Shown here in pieces: positions 3,868 through 34,667 of a stretch of 37,430 nucleotides of DNA. Made by a program: the position numbers and the translations under genes. Within the stretch, counting starts at the first letter, position 1; every line of letters begins with the position of its first letter. The notes under the pieces were generated by a model, which did not search any database, was not told where the DNA came from, and saw only the letters and a list, made by a program, of their open reading frames with translations. The stretch comes from Candidatus Liptonbacteria bacterium (GTDB lineage Bacteria > Patescibacteriota > Minisyncoccia > UBA6257 > 2-01-FULL-56-20): assembly GCA_016867315.1 (NCBI GenBank), contig VGJV01000004.1:1-37430 (forward strand). The letters are read 5' to 3'.

Positions 3868-4818
3868 ATGAATAACCGCCTGATTCCTACTTCCTTATTC
3901 CTTATTCTCGGTGTTGCGATAGGCCTTTTTTCCGTATATTTCCTTCGCAACACACCTTTTGTGCGCGGTGCCGCAGGCGGTGTGATTACTATTAGCGCGA
4001 GAATTGCGGGTCTTCCGATTCCCAATGCGGATGAGGAAGTGGCGACTATTAATTATCTCCAATCCAAGCCGGCGGTAGGAAAATGGCGTTCTCAAGTGTT
4101 CACTTCGAACGGCACGTTCACGGTGCCTACGGGAGTGACGAGGGTATGGGTTACCGCCTGGGGCGGCGGAGGTGGAGGAGGAGGCGGATATAACTGCAGT
4201 GGAAACGCGTATCACGGCGGCGGAGGCGGGAGCGGGGAAATGGTGTATCGCCAAGGAGTGGATGTGAGTGCGGGTGGGGCCATCGCAGTAACGGTAGGGC
4301 CAGCCGGTACGGGAGGTTCGGGGGCTTCGGGTTCGAATGGCACAGCCGGAGGCACCTCGACCTTCGTTGCTACAAGTATCACGATATCTGTCGCGGGAGG
4401 TGGATTTGGAAGATCCGGAGCGTGCAATGCCTCGAATGCTACAGGAGGGTCGGGTGGAGGACCGCTTGGAGGGCCAGGAGGTGCGTCATATTCTACGGCT
4501 GGTGCACTGGGTAGCTCTACACTGATTCGGATTGGAGGCGGAGGAGGCGGAGCGCAAAATGCTTCAGGCTCCTTTATGGGACCTTTTGCGGGAGGTCTTC
4601 CAGGTTCAATTAATTCTGGGGGTGGGGGCGCGGCGGGATTAAGAGGTCCAGGGGGGCGCGGCGGAAACTCAGATTTTGCGAGCACCTGCACCGCAGGACA
4701 AAGTGCTTCTTCGACGAGCGGGGCTGGAGGCGGCGGAGGAGGAGGGGTAAACAGCGGGACTGGCTGTAACGGTGGAGACGGCGGCGCCGGGGGAGTATTA
4801 GTCGAATGGGTGGAATAA
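3868..4818 (+). CDS. Gly-rich membrane-anchored surface protein, paralogue 1 of 4
   Basis: N-terminal TM, GGVITISAR, FTSNGTFTVPTGVTRVWVTAWGGGGGGGG, ends GGVLVEWVE. Confidence 0.8.
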   Translation: MNNRLIPTSLFLILGVAIGLFSVYFLRNTPFVRGAAGGVITISARIAGLPIPNADEEVATINYLQSKPAVGKWRSQVFTSNGTFTVPTGVTRVWVTAWGGGGGGGGGYNCSGNAYHGGGGGSGEMVYRQGVDVSAGGAIAVTVGPAGTGGSGASGSNGTAGGTSTFVATSITISVAGGGFGRSGACNASNATGGSGGGPLGGPGGASYSTAGALGSSTLIRIGGGGGGAQNASGSFMGPFAGGLPGSINSGGGGAAGLRGPGGRGGNSDFASTCTAGQSASSTSGAGGGGGGGVNSGTGCNGGDGGAGGVLVEWVE

Positions 4819-4845
4819 TTTCCGAAGGAGTGAGAATTAAGAATC

Positions 4846-5883
4846 ATGAATCAAGAAATAAAACATAAGGGGCCGGAATCAAGAAGGAGTTTTCGGTTGA
4901 TTTGTGCTCCTAAATTCTTGCTTCTTTTTGCGGGCGGCATCGCTCTCGTGTGGCTGGGGATTGTAGCACCGCCTCTCGTAAAAGGACAGGCAATCAAAGT
5001 GATCACCATTTCCGCGCGCGTTACGGGAGTTTCTCCTCCTACAGCGTCGGGGGACGCGCTCACGTTGGAATATTTTCAATTGCAGAGTGTAACTGCCTCC
5101 AGTAAATCACAAACCTTTACCTCGAATGGCACGTTCACAGTGCCCACGGGAGTGTCTTTGATATGGGTCACCGCCTGGGGCGGCGGCGGCGGAGGAGGAG
5201 GATCAACCGGATTTCCGCCACCAAACAGCGGAGGGTCTACTGTCGGCGGAGGCGGAGGCGGCAGCGGCGCAGTGGTGTATAAAATGCCGCTCAACGTAAG
5301 CGGCGGACAACAATACTCAGTTACAATTGGAAACGGGGGGAATGGCGGGGTAAATGTTTCTTTTCCATCTTGGGGAGACTCCTCCGGTACCGATGGTGGA
5401 GATACTAAGTTCGGTGACCTCATAGTCGCCCAGGGAGGAAAAGGGGGACCGCAAGCCAGTCAGCAAAGAGGAGGTGTAGGAGGAGGTGGGGGAGGTAGAG
5501 GAGGGCTTAACACTTCTGGAAATACTGACGGTCGGGCTGGTTACCAAACCCCTTTTGGAGTGGGAGGATCGGGAGGAGGAAGCGGAGGAAATGGAGGATA
5601 TGCAGACGCAGGAAAGGGAGGTCCTATGCCCCCATTTGCAGGAGGAACCAAAGGTTCAACGGGCAATATTGGAGGTTTATGTAATTATGTGTCCGGCGGC
5701 GGTGGAGGCGGCGGAGGGTTTCGAGGCGCGGGAGGCAACGGAGGGAATTACCACACGAACGGGTCCGGGGCAGTGACGAATACTGGAGCCGGAGGAGGGG
5801 GGGGAGGGTCCGGTTGTAACTTCGGTAACACCATTGGCGGTGGAGGAGGAGCCGGAGGCGTAATCGTCGAATGGACGGAATAG
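4846..5883 (+). CDS. Gly-rich membrane-anchored surface protein, paralogue 2 of 4
   Basis: Same architecture; FTSNGTFTVPTGVSLIWVTAWGGGGGGGG, ends GGVIVEWTE. Confidence 0.8.
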   Translation: MNQEIKHKGPESRRSFRLICAPKFLLLFAGGIALVWLGIVAPPLVKGQAIKVITISARVTGVSPPTASGDALTLEYFQLQSVTASSKSQTFTSNGTFTVPTGVSLIWVTAWGGGGGGGGSTGFPPPNSGGSTVGGGGGGSGAVVYKMPLNVSGGQQYSVTIGNGGNGGVNVSFPSWGDSSGTDGGDTKFGDLIVAQGGKGGPQASQQRGGVGGGGGGRGGLNTSGNTDGRAGYQTPFGVGGSGGGSGGNGGYADAGKGGPMPPFAGGTKGSTGNIGGLCNYVSGGGGGGGGFRGAGGNGGNYHTNGSGAVTNTGAGGGGGGSGCNFGNTIGGGGGAGGVIVEWTE

Positions 5884-5914
5884 TGTGAAAAAATAGAATC
5901 CAGAATTAGGAATC

Positions 5915-6907
5915 ATGAACCAGGAAGTAAAACATGCGGATCAGGAATTAAACGAACTCCAGCCCAAAAGAAATAAAAGGCAGGCGCTTGCTTCCTTTTT
6001 CCTGCTTCTTGCTTCTATGACCGTCGGCTTCCTCGGTGCGCACTACTTGGTGAGAGGAGCGTCGGGCGGAGTGATCACTATATCCGCGAGACTCACCGGA
6101 ATCTTGACTCCAACCCAGTCGAGTGATCTTGTCACGCGAGGCTATGTGAACACGCAATCAGGCGGGGGAGGAAGGTTGAAATCCCAAACTATTAACACCT
6201 CGAGTACCTTTACAGCCCCGACGGGAGTTTCTTTGGTATGGGTTACTGCATGGGGAGGAGGCGGAGGTGGAGGAGGAGGCTGGTATTTAGGCAATTATTG
6301 TTGCGGCGGCGGCGGAGGTGGCGGCGGAGCGGCAATATTCAGAGTGCCTATGAACACTATTTCCGGCGCCTCAATTACAGTAACGATTGGAGCGGGAGGA
6401 GCGGGCGGCGCAGGGGGGAGTAGCGGCACTGGTGGAGTCGCAGGCGGAACCACTACGGTGGTAGGCACGCTCACGCTCTCTGCAGGTGGCGGTGGTGGGG
6501 GAGATTTTATAGGTTCTGGCGGGACAGGAGGGGGAGGGGCCTTGGGAGGAGCCGGAGGACCTTTTGTATTTGAACAAGGCACTACTCAGGGGAGACCTGG
6601 AATGAGCCCCTCGAGCACGCTGGTGGCGATGGGAGGAGGCGGGGGCGGAGGGGGGTTAGGAAACTATGCAATCCCGGGAGGTACAGGCGGAAGAGTAGGG
6701 AACTATGCCGGAGCGTCAGGTACCACGTGTATTACCGGTTCTACAGGGGGAGGTGGATCTAGTTTTGCCGGATCAGGAGGGACGGGTGGATGCACTGTTG
6801 GAAATAACGCCGCTGCGAATACCGGCGCTGGCGGAGGAGGAGGGGCAGGGAACAGTTCAGGAGGCACCGGCGGTTCCGGTGGCGTCATTTTGGAATGGGT
6901 GGAATAA
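5915..6907 (+). CDS. Gly-rich membrane-anchored surface protein, paralogue 3 of 4
   Basis: Same architecture; STFTAPTGVSLVWVTAWGGGGGGGGG, ends GGVILEWVE. Confidence 0.8.
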   Translation: MNQEVKHADQELNELQPKRNKRQALASFFLLLASMTVGFLGAHYLVRGASGGVITISARLTGILTPTQSSDLVTRGYVNTQSGGGGRLKSQTINTSSTFTAPTGVSLVWVTAWGGGGGGGGGWYLGNYCCGGGGGGGGAAIFRVPMNTISGASITVTIGAGGAGGAGGSSGTGGVAGGTTTVVGTLTLSAGGGGGGDFIGSGGTGGGGALGGAGGPFVFEQGTTQGRPGMSPSSTLVAMGGGGGGGGLGNYAIPGGTGGRVGNYAGASGTTCITGSTGGGGSSFAGSGGTGGCTVGNNAAANTGAGGGGGAGNSSGGTGGSGGVILEWVE

Positions 6908-6932
6908 AATCAGGAATCAAGAAGTAAGAATC

Positions 6933-7865
6933 ATGAATAAACAATCAAAAAGCACGAATCAAGAAGGAGGAATCAAGAAGCATGAATCAAGAAGTATGCG
7001 TGCTTCTCGATTCCCGCTTCTTACTATAAGCGGTCTTCTTTTTGGAGCGATTGCAGCCTTTTTGATGGTATATCCAGCTCAATCTAAGCCGGCAGAGATT
7101 CCTTTGGGAGAAAAGCTTTTCGCCGCTTCCGGGAGAACGCAATCGCGATTATTTACTTCGGGAACCACGGTATTTACATTTCCTTCGAACGTCTCGCTTA
7201 TTTGGGTGACGCTTTGGGGTGGAGGCGGCGGAGGAGGAGGAGTTTACACCTGGAACACCCAGGGCGGTGGCGGCGGAGGCGGCGGAGAAATTATTTACAG
7301 ATATCCGGTAACGATTACGCCCGGAGCGGCGAGCTCCATAACGATAGGAGAAGGGGGAACGGGTGGAATTTCGGGGGCTTCCTACTCCGACGGGATCACC
7401 GGAGGCACTTCTTCGTTTGTGATGCCTGGTCTTAGTCTGCATGCCGCCGGAGGGGTGGGAGGATTGCATGCGAACAACCTCGGAGCAGGAGGCGCGGGAG
7501 GAGGCCCGGGCGGCGGCGGAGGCGGAAGCGGCGATGGTGGAACGGGGGGCACCGGCTCGGCCAGCACATTTGGGGCAGGCGGAGGAGGGGGTGGTGGATA
7601 TAACGGATCGGGAGGTTCGGGATTGTTTAATACGGGAGGTTCGGGAGGTGGTTCTAGCAACGCCGGTGGCGGCGGAGGTGGAAGCTTCGGCGGGCCCGGA
7701 GCGGCGGGAGGAGTGGCGAACTGCGGCGCAGGAGGAATTGGAGCCGCGAATACCGGTGGCGGCGGAGGCGGAGCAGCCAGCAGGCATTACAGTAGCGGCG
7801 GTGGTTGCGGTAATTACGGTGGAAAAGGCGGCTCCGGCGGAATGATTATCGAGTGGATTCAGTAA
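6933..7865 (+). CDS. Gly-rich membrane-anchored surface protein, paralogue 4 of 4
   Basis: ATG 6933 (MNKQSKSTNQE...), TTVFTFPSNVSLIWVTLWGGGGGGGG, ends GGMIIEWIQ; listed ORF start 6705 is probably too early. Confidence 0.75.
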   Translation: MNKQSKSTNQEGGIKKHESRSMRASRFPLLTISGLLFGAIAAFLMVYPAQSKPAEIPLGEKLFAASGRTQSRLFTSGTTVFTFPSNVSLIWVTLWGGGGGGGGVYTWNTQGGGGGGGGEIIYRYPVTITPGAASSITIGEGGTGGISGASYSDGITGGTSSFVMPGLSLHAAGGVGGLHANNLGAGGAGGGPGGGGGGSGDGGTGGTGSASTFGAGGGGGGGYNGSGGSGLFNTGGSGGGSSNAGGGGGGSFGGPGAAGGVANCGAGGIGAANTGGGGGGAASRHYSSGGGCGNYGGKGGSGGMIIEWIQ

Positions 7866-12420: not shown

Positions 12421-12480
12421 GAAAACTAGAAAGTAGAAAGTAGAATCTAGAGAGATACTGGATTTGCTATACTCAAAAGT

Positions 12481-20931: not shown

Positions 20932-20973
20932 TGTACTCCTCTATGTTCTAATTTCTACTTTCTATTTTCTAAT

Positions 20974-21822
20974 CTAGACCGTGCGGGGCGCATCGCGGGG
21001 TAAATCGAGATTTTCCTTCTCGAATGCTAATTTGAGGCGTCGCCGCATTTCTCCCGTCGTATCCCATTGGTGAAGCGGCTGGGTATCGCCGATGACTTTG
21101 ATGGTGGTGCCCCAATCGCTCATTCCTTCTATGCGAAAAAACTGCGGCGGAGTGAGCACATACTTTTTCCATATGGGGTCCGCCGCGAGTTCCTCTCCCA
21201 CGCGGTTGATAATCTCGATCCCTTTCTCTACCCCCACCTTATGGGAGACCGTGATATTTAAGTTCACTCGAGAGAGTTTCTTCGAAAAATTGGAGACGCG
21301 CCGAATCATTCCATGAGGAAGGTGATGCACAGTGCCATCCAGATCCCGAAGTTGAGTAATGCGGAGGGTAATATCCTCGACCGTGCCGCAGGTGGCATCG
21401 AAGCATACATAATCGCCCACGCGATATTGATTTTCAATAATGATAAAAAGACCGGAAATCACGTCATGCACAAAGGACTGACTGCCGAACCCTATCGCGA
21501 TTCCTAAAATTCCCGCCGCCGCGATAAGGGGTCCCGTCTCCACTCCCAATTCGGCGAGAAACATAGTGGTCGCGACGATCCAGACCGTAACGCGGAGCGT
21601 ATCCGAAAAAACCCGGATAAGCGTTTTCTCCCGCCTGCGTTCCGCTTTTCTCGAAAGGAATCTGTCTGAGACGATCACGCGTCGCACCACTTTTTCGAGG
21701 AAAATAGTACCTATGATCCGAATTAAAATCGCCCCCACCACAATAAGGAGGAGTTTAAGTCCATGTGATTGGAGCCAATCCACCACCCCTTGTGGAGTAA
21801 TGTACATAGAAAACTCGAGCAT
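20974..21822 (-). CDS. mscS: Mechanosensitive ion channel (MscS family)
   Basis: AAAGILGIAIGFGSQSFVHDVISGLFIIIENQYRVGDYVCFDATCGTVEDITLRITQLRDLDGTVHHLPHG. Confidence 0.92.
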   Translation of the reverse strand: MLEFSMYITPQGVVDWLQSHGLKLLLIVVGAILIRIIGTIFLEKVVRRVIVSDRFLSRKAERRREKTLIRVFSDTLRVTVWIVATTMFLAELGVETGPLIAAAGILGIAIGFGSQSFVHDVISGLFIIIENQYRVGDYVCFDATCGTVEDITLRITQLRDLDGTVHHLPHGMIRRVSNFSKKLSRVNLNITVSHKVGVEKGIEIINRVGEELAADPIWKKYVLTPPQFFRIEGMSDWGTTIKVIGDTQPLHQWDTTGEMRRRLKLAFEKENLDLPRDAPRTV

Positions 21823-28043: not shown

Positions 28044-28122
28044 AGTGATAGTGATGATTAAATAACGCGACCTTTATCGCAAGATGTTTCCATTGTGATG
28101 GAAAGAGATTAGGTGAAGATGA

Positions 28123-28185
28123 ATCCCGTGAGAGGCCCGCGCAAAGCCGCGGCGGATATCGAAGATATCCTGCCTCTCGCGGGAT
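28123..28185. ncRNA. Three-helix RNA-like motif, copy 1
   Basis: ATCCCGTGAGAGGC/GCCTCTCGCGGGAT outer stem, CCGC..GCGG and GGATATC-GAA-GATATCC inner hairpins. Confidence 0.6.
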
Positions 28186-28460
28186 GAATTTCATGTGATG
28201 TTCATGGGGGGAGCATTAAAAACTCATATAGAACAAGGCTGCGCAGACGCGCGGAGTTCTTGGTACTTCATAATTCGGAAACTCATTGAATCTCAATGAA
28301 GGTCAATGAGTAGGGAGAGACGCTAATTTTATGCCCGGAGGAAATATAAGGAAAAAATAGAAATCCTTATCCTGTACGTTTACAAACCGATTGTCCGTAA
28401 TGAGCTGCGGGAAAAATTCTCGGCAGCGCAAGGTCGAAATTAATGTCCTAAACGTAATAC

Positions 28461-29231
28461 ATGCAAAAAGGATTTGGAATGACAGTAAAAGGCTTGGCGC
28501 TTATGGCATGTGCGGTGGGACTCTTCTGGGGGTCCGGCGCAGAAGCGCAAACGTCGAAAGGGTTGTGCGTGCCTATTGTGGGTTTTGCCCGAATGGGAGA
28601 AGCGAATGATCCTGCGGAAGTGAGAAAGATCCAGGAATTTCTCGTGCAGTATGAGAATTTGGAAGTGCCTGTTTCCGGGATCTATGACGAAGCCACTATG
28701 GAGGGAGTAAAAGTATTTCAATCCCGACACGCGAGCGAAGTCCTCACCCCCTGGGGAGCTACACAGCCTACTGGATACGTATACATTACGACGCGCAACG
28801 CAATGAACGCGATTATCTGCGGCACAAACGCTCCGCTTTCGGCGGAAGAAAAGGCGGTTATCGCGGCCTACCATGCGCGTAAAAATGCAAAGCCAGTGGC
28901 GGTGGAAGCTTCAAAACCCCAGCCCACTACTTCTGCAGCCCCCACTCCTAAAGCGAGCCTTCCTTTGGTAGCGAGTGTTTCTTCGACTCCAGTACGCGAA
29001 AGCGCTGCTCCCCGAGCGGTGCTTGGAACCTCTACTACAGAGATAAAGAAAGAAACAATAGTTTCTCAAATAGCGACACCGCAATCAGAGAAAAAAGAGG
29101 AGCTGAAGCTGGTGAGTGCAAACGGAAGTTCAAGCGAAGAAACAAATGTTCCAAAAAGGAAATCAGGAGGGTTGATGAGTTGGGCAGGAGGAGTCCGAGA
29201 TCATCTCAAATGGTTCTGGGATTCTTTTTAG
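28461..29231 (+). CDS. Secreted peptidoglycan-binding-domain protein
   Basis: Signal peptide, DPAEVRKIQEFLVQYENLEVPVSGIYDEATMEGVKVFQSRH (PG_binding_1-like). Confidence 0.75.
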   Translation: MQKGFGMTVKGLALMACAVGLFWGSGAEAQTSKGLCVPIVGFARMGEANDPAEVRKIQEFLVQYENLEVPVSGIYDEATMEGVKVFQSRHASEVLTPWGATQPTGYVYITTRNAMNAIICGTNAPLSAEEKAVIAAYHARKNAKPVAVEASKPQPTTSAAPTPKASLPLVASVSSTPVRESAAPRAVLGTSTTEIKKETIVSQIATPQSEKKEELKLVSANGSSSEETNVPKRKSGGLMSWAGGVRDHLKWFWDSF

Positions 29232-29292
29232 TATATTGGAATGATTCTAGGCAAAAGGGCCTCATGCAGGGGCTCTTTTGTTTTTGATTCAT

Positions 29293-29320
29293 CCCCCACA
29301 CCTGCGCGCAGGTGTGGGGG
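29293..29320. repeat. Perfect 28-bp palindrome CCCCCACACCTGCGCGCAGGTGTGGGGG
   Basis: Read directly; no loop. Confidence 0.85.
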
Positions 29321-29360
29321 TTCACCCCTCTTTCACTGCTTGTGCACTTAACTGGGAGGT

Positions 29361-29468
29361 ATGCGAGCGATATGGTCAGGAGCGTTAAATTTTGGACTTA
29401 TCAATATCCCGGTGCGGCTCTATAGCGCGATAGAAGGCTGCTACTCACTCGAAAAGCTAGTGATCTAG
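29361..29468 (+). pseudogene. Truncated Ku-like N-terminus (35 aa)
   Basis: GGGAGGT SD then MRAIWSGALNFGLINIPVRLYSAIEGCYSLEKLVI*; first ~25 aa match the Ku N-terminal signature. Confidence 0.65.
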
Positions 29469-29950
29469 CGAATATCAAGAATTTTATATTTCCGAATCCC
29501 CATCTCCGTGCGAAGGAGTATGGTAGCTCCTTTGGGGTGGCGGAGGAGGGCGGCTCCCAAGGGAGATTTATGGGAAATCCGGTTTTTTTCCGGATTCGTT
29601 TCTTGAGGTCCCACGATTTGATAGATCCGCTCTTTCCCTTCGCATTCCAAAACCACGGTAGACCCCAGCTCTACGATCCCCGATGGGCCCCGAGGGCGGA
29701 TAATTACGATCCGCTTTAACTGAGCTTCGATAGTCCAAATCTGCCGATGCGTGCGGCGGAGCGTGGACTTTGCCATTTGGTACTCCGCATTTTCTGATCT
29801 GTCTCCGTAGGCGGCGGTGCGCGCGGTCTCGGCGATAAGGTCGGGAAGCGACGCTTTAAGTCGGGAAAGCTTATCTTTGAGTTTTACGAACCCTTCTTCA
29901 GTAAGAGGGATCGGTTCGTCATCTCGTTTCCGTGAGTGGAGAGTGCGCAT
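29465..29950 (-). CDS. greA: Transcription elongation factor GreA/GreB family
   Basis: EEGFVKLKDKLSRLKASLPDLIAETARTAAYGDRSENAEYQMAKSTLRR; start at MRTLHSRKR. Confidence 0.88.
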   Translation of the reverse strand: MRTLHSRKRDDEPIPLTEEGFVKLKDKLSRLKASLPDLIAETARTAAYGDRSENAEYQMAKSTLRRTHRQIWTIEAQLKRIVIIRPRGPSGIVELGSTVVLECEGKERIYQIVGPQETNPEKNRISHKSPLGAALLRHPKGATILLRTEMGIRKYKILDIR

Positions 29951-30043
29951 CCCCCTATGATACGGGATATCCCTTATGTTCCCAAGTCTAGATTGCTTCA
30001 GCCGCATTTAATTGGGTCCTAGGTATAAATGAAGGGCAGGTGA

Positions 30044-30110
30044 GTCCCGTTTAGAGACCCTCCCAAAAGCCGAGGCAGATATCGGGAAGATATCCTATCT
30101 CTAACGGGAT
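30044..30110. ncRNA. Three-helix RNA-like motif, copy 2
   Basis: TCCCGTTTAGAGA/TCTCTAACGGGA, CCTC..GAGG and GATATC-GGGAA-GATATC; compensatory differences from copy 1. Confidence 0.6.
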
Positions 30111-30145
30111 GAGTAAAGGTCGTCGGTGCGTAAAATCTGAAGCAT

Positions 30146-30488: not shown

Positions 30489-30562
30489 GAGAATCATGAG
30501 GGGTGCGCAGCGTAAGCTTGGCCGAACGGCCTCGAGTGTCTGCGCAGCCCCGCATGATTCTC
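30489..30562. repeat. Long stem-loop (74 nt) just after the DUF4383 stop
   Basis: GAGAATCATG/CATGATTCTC, GGGG/CCCC, GCGCAG/CTGCGC, apical GGCCG-AA-CGGCC. Confidence 0.75.
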
Positions 30563-30587
30563 GGTAGTGGGTGATAAATAAAATAAC

Positions 30588-34168: not shown

Positions 34169-34199
34169 AGAGAAAATAGAAAGTAGAAAGTAGAAGCAT

Positions 34200-34667
34200 A
34201 TGCGTATTGTCGTAATTCTCCATAATATTCGAAGCCTTCATAATGTGGGCTCGATTTTCCGTACCTCAGACGGGGCGGGAGTAGAAAAGATATATTTGAG
34301 CGGGATTACGCCCACGCCGCTGGATCGCTTCGGCCACTATATTAAAGAGGTAGAAAAAGTGGCATTAGGGGCAGAGCGGAGCATGCCATGGGAAAAAATA
34401 TCAAGTACTGCCTCGCTACTACTGAGATTAAAAAAAGAAGGCTGGAAAATTCTAGCGATAGAGCAGGCTAAAAATTCCTTGCTCTATACAAAGAAACCGA
34501 AAAGCAAAAAGATCGCGGTGGTCCTCGGTGCGGAAGTGAAAGGATTGCCCCCCTCAATTCTTAAAGCTGCCGATACAATTTTGGAAATCCCCATGCTTGG
34601 AAAGAAAGAATCCTTGAATGTATCTGTTACTGCTGGAATCATTCTTTTCTCCCTACGGTACAATTAG
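34200..34667 (+). CDS. TrmH/SpoU family RNA 2'-O-methyltransferase
   Basis: LHNIRSLHNVGSIFRTSDGAGVEKIYLSGITPTP, VVLGAEVKGLP, IPMLGKKESLNVSVTAGI. Confidence 0.9.
   Translation: MRIVVILHNIRSLHNVGSIFRTSDGAGVEKIYLSGITPTPLDRFGHYIKEVEKVALGAERSMPWEKISSTASLLLRLKKEGWKILAIEQAKNSLLYTKKPKSKKIAVVLGAEVKGLPPSILKAADTILEIPMLGKKESLNVSVTAGIILFSLRYN

Follow-up and report, generated by a model that had tools for sequence, protein, structure and literature searches.

The window, a 37,430-nucleotide stretch of a Candidatus Liptonbacteria genome (G000), contains two hairpin sequences that are short, non-coding copies of a dispersed element family and not a private RNA. These copies are probably non-autonomous, MITE-like members of a mobile element family that occurs in very small bacteria and has a minimal, GIY-YIG-coding parent. 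Insertion of family members is well supported; that a GIY-YIG nuclease encoded by longer relatives moves them is an inference from the sequences, most of all for the window's short class.

The hairpin copies and their family

Both three-helix copies of the original prediction are present, and their limits could be set by comparison with relatives (Table 1). Each has 13-bp arms as terminal inverted repeats (with one bulge in copy 2) and is enclosed by a perfect 4-bp direct repeat, which is the true flank common to the two copies. The hexamer AGGTGA, previously described as preceding both, lies outside the element and is out of register: it adjoins copy 2, and stands about six bases further out at copy 1. 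Against shuffled sequences, the three-helix fold is strong for copy 1 (z = -6.9) and moderate for copy 2 (z = -2.0). Both copies are intergenic and do lie between divergent genes, with a PG-binding protein and a DUF4383 protein encoded on the plus strand and GreA/GreB on the minus strand; the small minus-strand ORF on the left side of copy 1 was identified by eye.

Table 1. Limits, arms and flanking repeats of the two hairpin copies in the window (positions of the 37,430-nucleotide stretch).
Feature	Position	Strand	Details
Copy 1 of mobile hairpin element	28124-28184	+	61 bp; limits from comparison with relatives
Copy 1 arms	28124-28136 / 28172-28184	+	left hairpin 28137-28152, right hairpin 28154-28170
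Copy 1 5' target-site duplication	28120-28123	.	TGAA
Copy 1 3' target-site duplication	28185-28188	.	TGAA
Copy 2 of mobile hairpin element	30045-30109	+	65 bp; limits from comparison with relatives
Copy 2 arms	30045-30057 (one bulged T) / 30098-30109	+	left hairpin 30059-30075, right hairpin 30078-30094
Copy 2 5' target-site duplication	30041-30044	.	TGAG
Copy 2 3' target-site duplication	30110-30113	.	TGAG

A pattern search located two further three-helix copies in the same genome (G000:C5:7875-7941 and C9:7326-7395). RNAalifold predicted 25 pairs for these four copies, five of them with two-sided changes, and a covariance model (R1) built from the four (the original prediction had proposed one from its two copies) found additional copies both in this genome and in relatives: it matched 22/61 related genomes at E<=0.1, and nine distinct places in G000 (11 matches, two of which hit the reverse strand of places already counted). 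A search for pairs of the terminal inverted repeat added four more, for a total of at least 13 distinct places in G000, all without a transposase ORF. The arms, TCCCGTTAGARRY and RYYTCTAACGGGA, are constant across genera, while the interiors vary and total lengths range from about 30 to 125 bp. With a tolerance of two mismatches, the pattern search in relatives rose barely above a reversed control for most genomes, and its matches do not count as evidence here. In addition, a scan of genome contigs with an 18-base core returned 118 stretches from many phyla, and four matches were found in viral contigs (with unequal arms, and none GIY-YIG by regular expression); both sets were treated as chance matches.

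The earlier claim that helix changes keep pairing was borne out in ten Y-type copies, drawn from six genomes with G000 contributing four, in which 14/25 pairs have two-sided changes. In this MAFFT alignment, 94.4% of cells pair, although the copies were found with a fold-based model, which biases the pair count toward that fold. Cells with two-sided changes number 46, compared with 15.8 in shuffles (0/500 reach 46), and pairing is lost when partners are slid by one to three columns. Such conservation of pairing would be expected if a nuclease selected its substrate by structure, as an extruded or single-stranded hairpin, but an arm-homogenizing copying process would look similar.

The original prediction had read the pair as a conserved Y-shaped element, an RNA or a binding site for protein, present twice within 2 kb. 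The Y fold and its covariation stand, on firmer evidence than two copies could give, but this reading is not the one favored here: the element is dispersed across contigs, genera, and families, bears terminal inverted repeats flanked by 4-bp target-site duplications, and is missing from one orthologous site in another genome. The prediction had also named membership in a known MITE or REP family as a refutation. This applies in part, since the element does behave as a MITE, but not as a catalogued one: the Rfam search called for earlier gave no match at the gathering score anywhere in the window, and our literature search found no published description of the family. At the same score, six loci of the wider set yielded a single tRNA (in L323).

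Other repeated sequences were also seen in G000. Another long hairpin, at window positions 30489-30565 and at G000:C9:7193-7233 (L393), has an apical part that is 93% alike in the two places and lower stems that differ between them, yet pair in both; it is possibly a second mobile hairpin family. Four long ORFs with abundant glycine-coding repeats and similar starts (3868-7865) are perhaps tandem paralogues of a surface protein. Finally, degenerate A/G-rich intergenic repeats, AAATAGAAAGTAGAAA, occur in both orientations at 2624-2662, 12423-12457, 20939-20976, and 34171-34200.

Insertion sites, start codons, and reading frames

Evidence for insertion comes from the flanks. One set of 100 pairs of terminal inverted repeats came from parts of three genomes and from additional loci; 59 of these pairs have identical 4-bp flanks, compared with 13.7 expected after shuffling of the flanks among pairs. 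A larger set, with duplicates removed, has identical flanks in 106/168 copies: 68/102 of those with lengths of 90-135 bp, 23/36 of those below 90 bp, 14/28 of those between 260 and 300 bp, and 1/2 of the others. These 168 copies were chosen for arms with at most two mismatches in 13, so the identity of their arms is not independent evidence. Of the ten Y-type copies, all but one are flanked by an identical 4-bp repeat.

Comparing all flanks against one another identified an empty site. In genome G042, a 120-bp copy occupies the junction between rplB and rpsS (gene names assigned from translations), and the same junction in G024 is without a copy. The flanks of the two genomes overlap by exactly four bases, TGAG, which fits insertion with a 4-bp duplication. 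For the short class, no orthologous empty site was found: genus relatives lack synteny at the window copies, and the host gene of the C9 copy is without a homologue in 60 relatives. A nested arrangement was also seen in G024, where two loci (L278:7714-7933 and L279:13675-13862) each have one element inserted in a second one, both times at an identical point within its right-hand hairpin.

The longer classes lie mostly on start codons. The last base of the element is A, and when followed by a repeat of the form TGAR it restores an ATG. Among oriented sites with a 3' TGA, 86/97 open an ORF of at least 50 aa; for the 3044 remaining ATGAR sites of these loci, the proportion is 30%. A restored start codon accompanies 79/102 copies of 90-135 bp and 18/28 of 260-300 bp, and only 1/36 of the short class (<90 bp), to which the window copies belong. 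In the short class, the combined length of element and repeat is a multiple of three in 24/37 copies (binomial p 9e-5, with relatedness ignored). One such copy lies in frame within glmS, where most of the inserted stretch is absent from the E. coli protein; other in-gene copies, read by eye, are in ruvB, a dihydrouridine synthase gene, an amino-acid-kinase gene, and others. When the dihydrouridine synthase was compared with solved structures, the alignment stopped near the insertion and no gap was visible. In G000 itself, a YecM-family gene contains the C9 copy, a close relative of window copy 1, as an in-frame insertion.

Coding relatives with a GIY-YIG nuclease

Pairs of the terminal inverted repeat spaced 260-283 bp apart occur in 30/244 genomes of the order. 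In 28 of the 30 loci read, the element (263-282 bp) is filled by a single GIY-YIG frame of ∼85-95 aa, its sole gene; the two loci without a coding frame are L348 (G117) and L361 (G054). A further place of this spacing that is not GIY-YIG-like, G048:C21, is outside the 30 loci read. The encoded domain is Pfam PF01541 (E 1e-16), and the nearest solved structure is the UPF0213 protein BH0048 (1zg2). The Y.Y, YxG, R, E, and N motifs are kept among the 27 aligned proteins (the coding locus L342 was dropped by the filter, and L347 and L354 end early), and the conserved Y, Y, R, E, and N residues are of the catalytic type. A perfect 4-bp repeat is missing in 14/28 coding loci. Where the repeats are TGAA, the frame can start at an ATG to which the 5' repeat contributes (MNPVR...). 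It closes, after ...LTG, on the TGA of the 3' repeat, and this TGA overlaps the restored host ATG. Across 379 genomes spread over the phylum, pairs of this spacing were found in 12; among 11 newly fetched phylum-wide loci, seven contain GIY-YIG by regular expression and two more by eye. One candidate for a longer pair (300-5000 bp), L264, proved to be two neighboring elements, one of them GIY-YIG-coding.

Several observations connect these coding elements with non-coding copies. The ∼120-bp class D of G024 has both ends, including the start ATG, in common with the coding element of that genome, for up to 25 nt at each end. Among the 244 genomes, copies of 95-125 bp are present in 22/30 with pairs of 260-283 bp, vs. 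40/214 of the others (Fisher p 4e-9); with the two genomes that lack GIY-YIG at that place reassigned, the counts are 20/28 vs. 42/216 (p 6e-8). By exact pattern, no coding copy was found in 42/62 genomes with ∼95-125-bp copies, G000 included, and the interior features that the window's short class has in common with the coding elements are limited to the terminal inverted repeat and the right-hand hairpin plan.

Other inverted repeats also bound a GIY-YIG gene. At least two further types, CCCAGTACTACAA and CCCCGTAAGAAA, do so and end exactly on a start codon, and an element with ends CCCCGCACCTTGTCC has a 5-bp repeat, TCTCA. Among 19 further GIY-YIG genes, most are without such repeats, including the two of G000. 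At L289:11444-11890, a GIY-YIG element with CCCCGTAAGAAA ends immediately precedes a non-coding copy of 131 bp that has these ends too, with TATG repeats; a putative parent and its derivative stand side by side here. By eye, small GIY-YIG genes without inverted repeats often adjoin tRNA genes (L368, L371-L375, L379-L382), and an Rfam-confirmed tRNA lies beside one GIY-YIG gene (L323:1813-1885). In three genomes (L313, L323, L383), GIY-YIG genes are bounded by the same perfect inverted repeat, CCCCCCACCACTT; an RNase P RNA context downstream of these genes, suspected by eye, had no Rfam support at the gathering score and was set aside.

Candidate mechanism, alternatives, and known systems

These features can be assembled into a putative mechanism. 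The GIY-YIG nuclease would recognize the terminal stem and adjoining hairpin of the element and cut its target with a 4-nt stagger, and would thereby insert coding and non-coding copies alike. Its preferred targets would be start codons, cut as A|TGAR, in the case of the longer classes, and TNNA-like sites in the case of the short class. The ∼120-bp and coding elements would land on start codons and leave the gene unbroken, because the last A of the element, together with TGAR, restores the ATG. The nuclease frame would start at the host's original ATG and stop on a TGA overlapping the restored one, with a possible translational hand-over to the host gene. The short class may survive between genes, or within genes if element and duplication together keep the frame. 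No coding element with TCCCGTTAGA ends was found in G000, so the window copies are probably remnants, immobile unless another nuclease acts in trans. At its broadest, the proposal describes a new class of autonomous transposable element, at ∼280 bp among the smallest, whose sole protein is a single-domain GIY-YIG nuclease; it would insert at start codons with a 4-bp duplication, borrow the host's ATG and ribosome site, return translation via an ATGA overlap, and support swarms of non-coding hairpins, including frame-keeping ones within genes. We give this full description an even chance of being correct.

Exact terminal inverted repeats with direct repeats of fixed length are the usual mark of DDE transposition. 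The ends seen here resemble that pattern, and many copy-bearing genomes are without a coding element, both of which favor a different mover for the same family, such as a host or plasmid transposase of the DDE or another type, with the GIY-YIG gene as cargo or helper. We regard this as unlikely, though it is the alternative to be taken most seriously: the GIY-YIG frame is the sole content of the coding element, GIY-YIG genes placed on start codons also lie within at least two unrelated types of terminal inverted repeat, neither G000 nor G024 (which has dozens of copies) has a Y1 transposase, and no pair of 300-5000 bp bearing a transposase was found in the fetched stretches, which are parts of genomes.

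The covariation in all three helices, the position of the window copies between divergent genes, and the ∼120-bp copies that directly precede a gene, where they may affect translation, could instead point to a structured RNA or DNA site copied for a host function, as a cis-regulator, small RNA, or binding site. Such a function is improbable given the flanking direct repeats, the empty site, the nesting of one copy in another (L278/L279), and the in-frame insertion into glmS; moreover, no common neighbor genes were seen and no Rfam family matched. Bidirectional terminators, or other look-alike chance hairpins, would account for the strong stem-loops, and the original prediction had named a terminator family as a possible refutation. 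We consider them very improbable: a T-run follows neither window copy, the 13-bp arm sequence is constant across genera, and flanks are duplicated, one site is empty, insertions occur within open frames, and the three helices covary.

Membership in a GIY-YIG mobile element family, the reading we prefer, places the copies near several known systems. By analogy, the family resembles the Rickettsia palindromic elements (RPEs), described in the available text as short, dispersed palindromic elements of several families, often in protein genes with the frame kept (PMC10969869). Here, too, short palindromes are dispersed and 24/37 short copies are frame-keeping, one of them in glmS, while the two window copies themselves are intergenic. 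Unlike RPEs, which were compared by description only, the present family occurs in other bacteria, has constant TCCCGTTAGA ends and clear 4-bp direct repeats, and includes longer members, bounded by these ends, in which a GIY-YIG nuclease is encoded. Bacterial MITEs are likewise short, numerous, and without an ORF, with terminal inverted repeats, target-site duplication, and ends in common with a coding element (as seen for class D of G024, whereas the window's short class has no more than the terminal inverted repeat in common with one); in contrast, the putative parent here carries a nuclease, not a transposase, the longer classes favor start codons, and the paired interior covaries. REP/REPIN sequences with their RAYT (Y1) transposases are also short palindromes dispersed between genes, whereas the present family has target-site duplications, and no Y1 transposase is present in G000 or G024. 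We had considered a Y1 (RAYT) enzyme as mover and rejected it: PF01797 had no match in G000 and was absent from 47/61 genomes, including G024.

Free-standing or intron-borne GIY-YIG homing endonuclease genes have the same catalytic domain, PF01541. Unlike these genes, the present elements have terminal inverted repeats and direct repeats, occupy many unrelated sites, contain no intron, and do not home into a cognate allele. Another parallel may be the insertions in CPR rRNA genes, for which the accessible part of the source describes GIY-YIG proteins at scattered sites, matching no intron and called outside a homing context, as well as short ORF-less insertions (PMC11270868). They apparently concern the same kind of bacteria and the same combination of GIY-YIG-coding and short ORF-less insertions, but that part of the source gives no terminal inverted repeats or duplications, and the comparison is by description only (PMC11270868). 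If the two are related, the family described here could also explain both kinds of rRNA-gene insertion (PMC11270868).

Taken together, the hairpins and the one-nuclease elements with the same ends suggest mobile DNA of a new and very simple type. If the proposal is true, palindromic elements of the RPE type would gain a candidate moving enzyme. A family that duplicates its target sites, favors start codons, and has a single partner gene makes the spread of small palindromic elements such as RPEs testable with a protein of ∼90 aa and a substrate of ∼60 bp. Annotation would change as well: some of the abundant small GIY-YIG genes of these genomes would belong to mobile elements, and peptides of about 20-27 residues inserted in conserved proteins would derive from the element. 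The family also shows that streamlined genomes carry many insertions, positioned such that genes remain readable.
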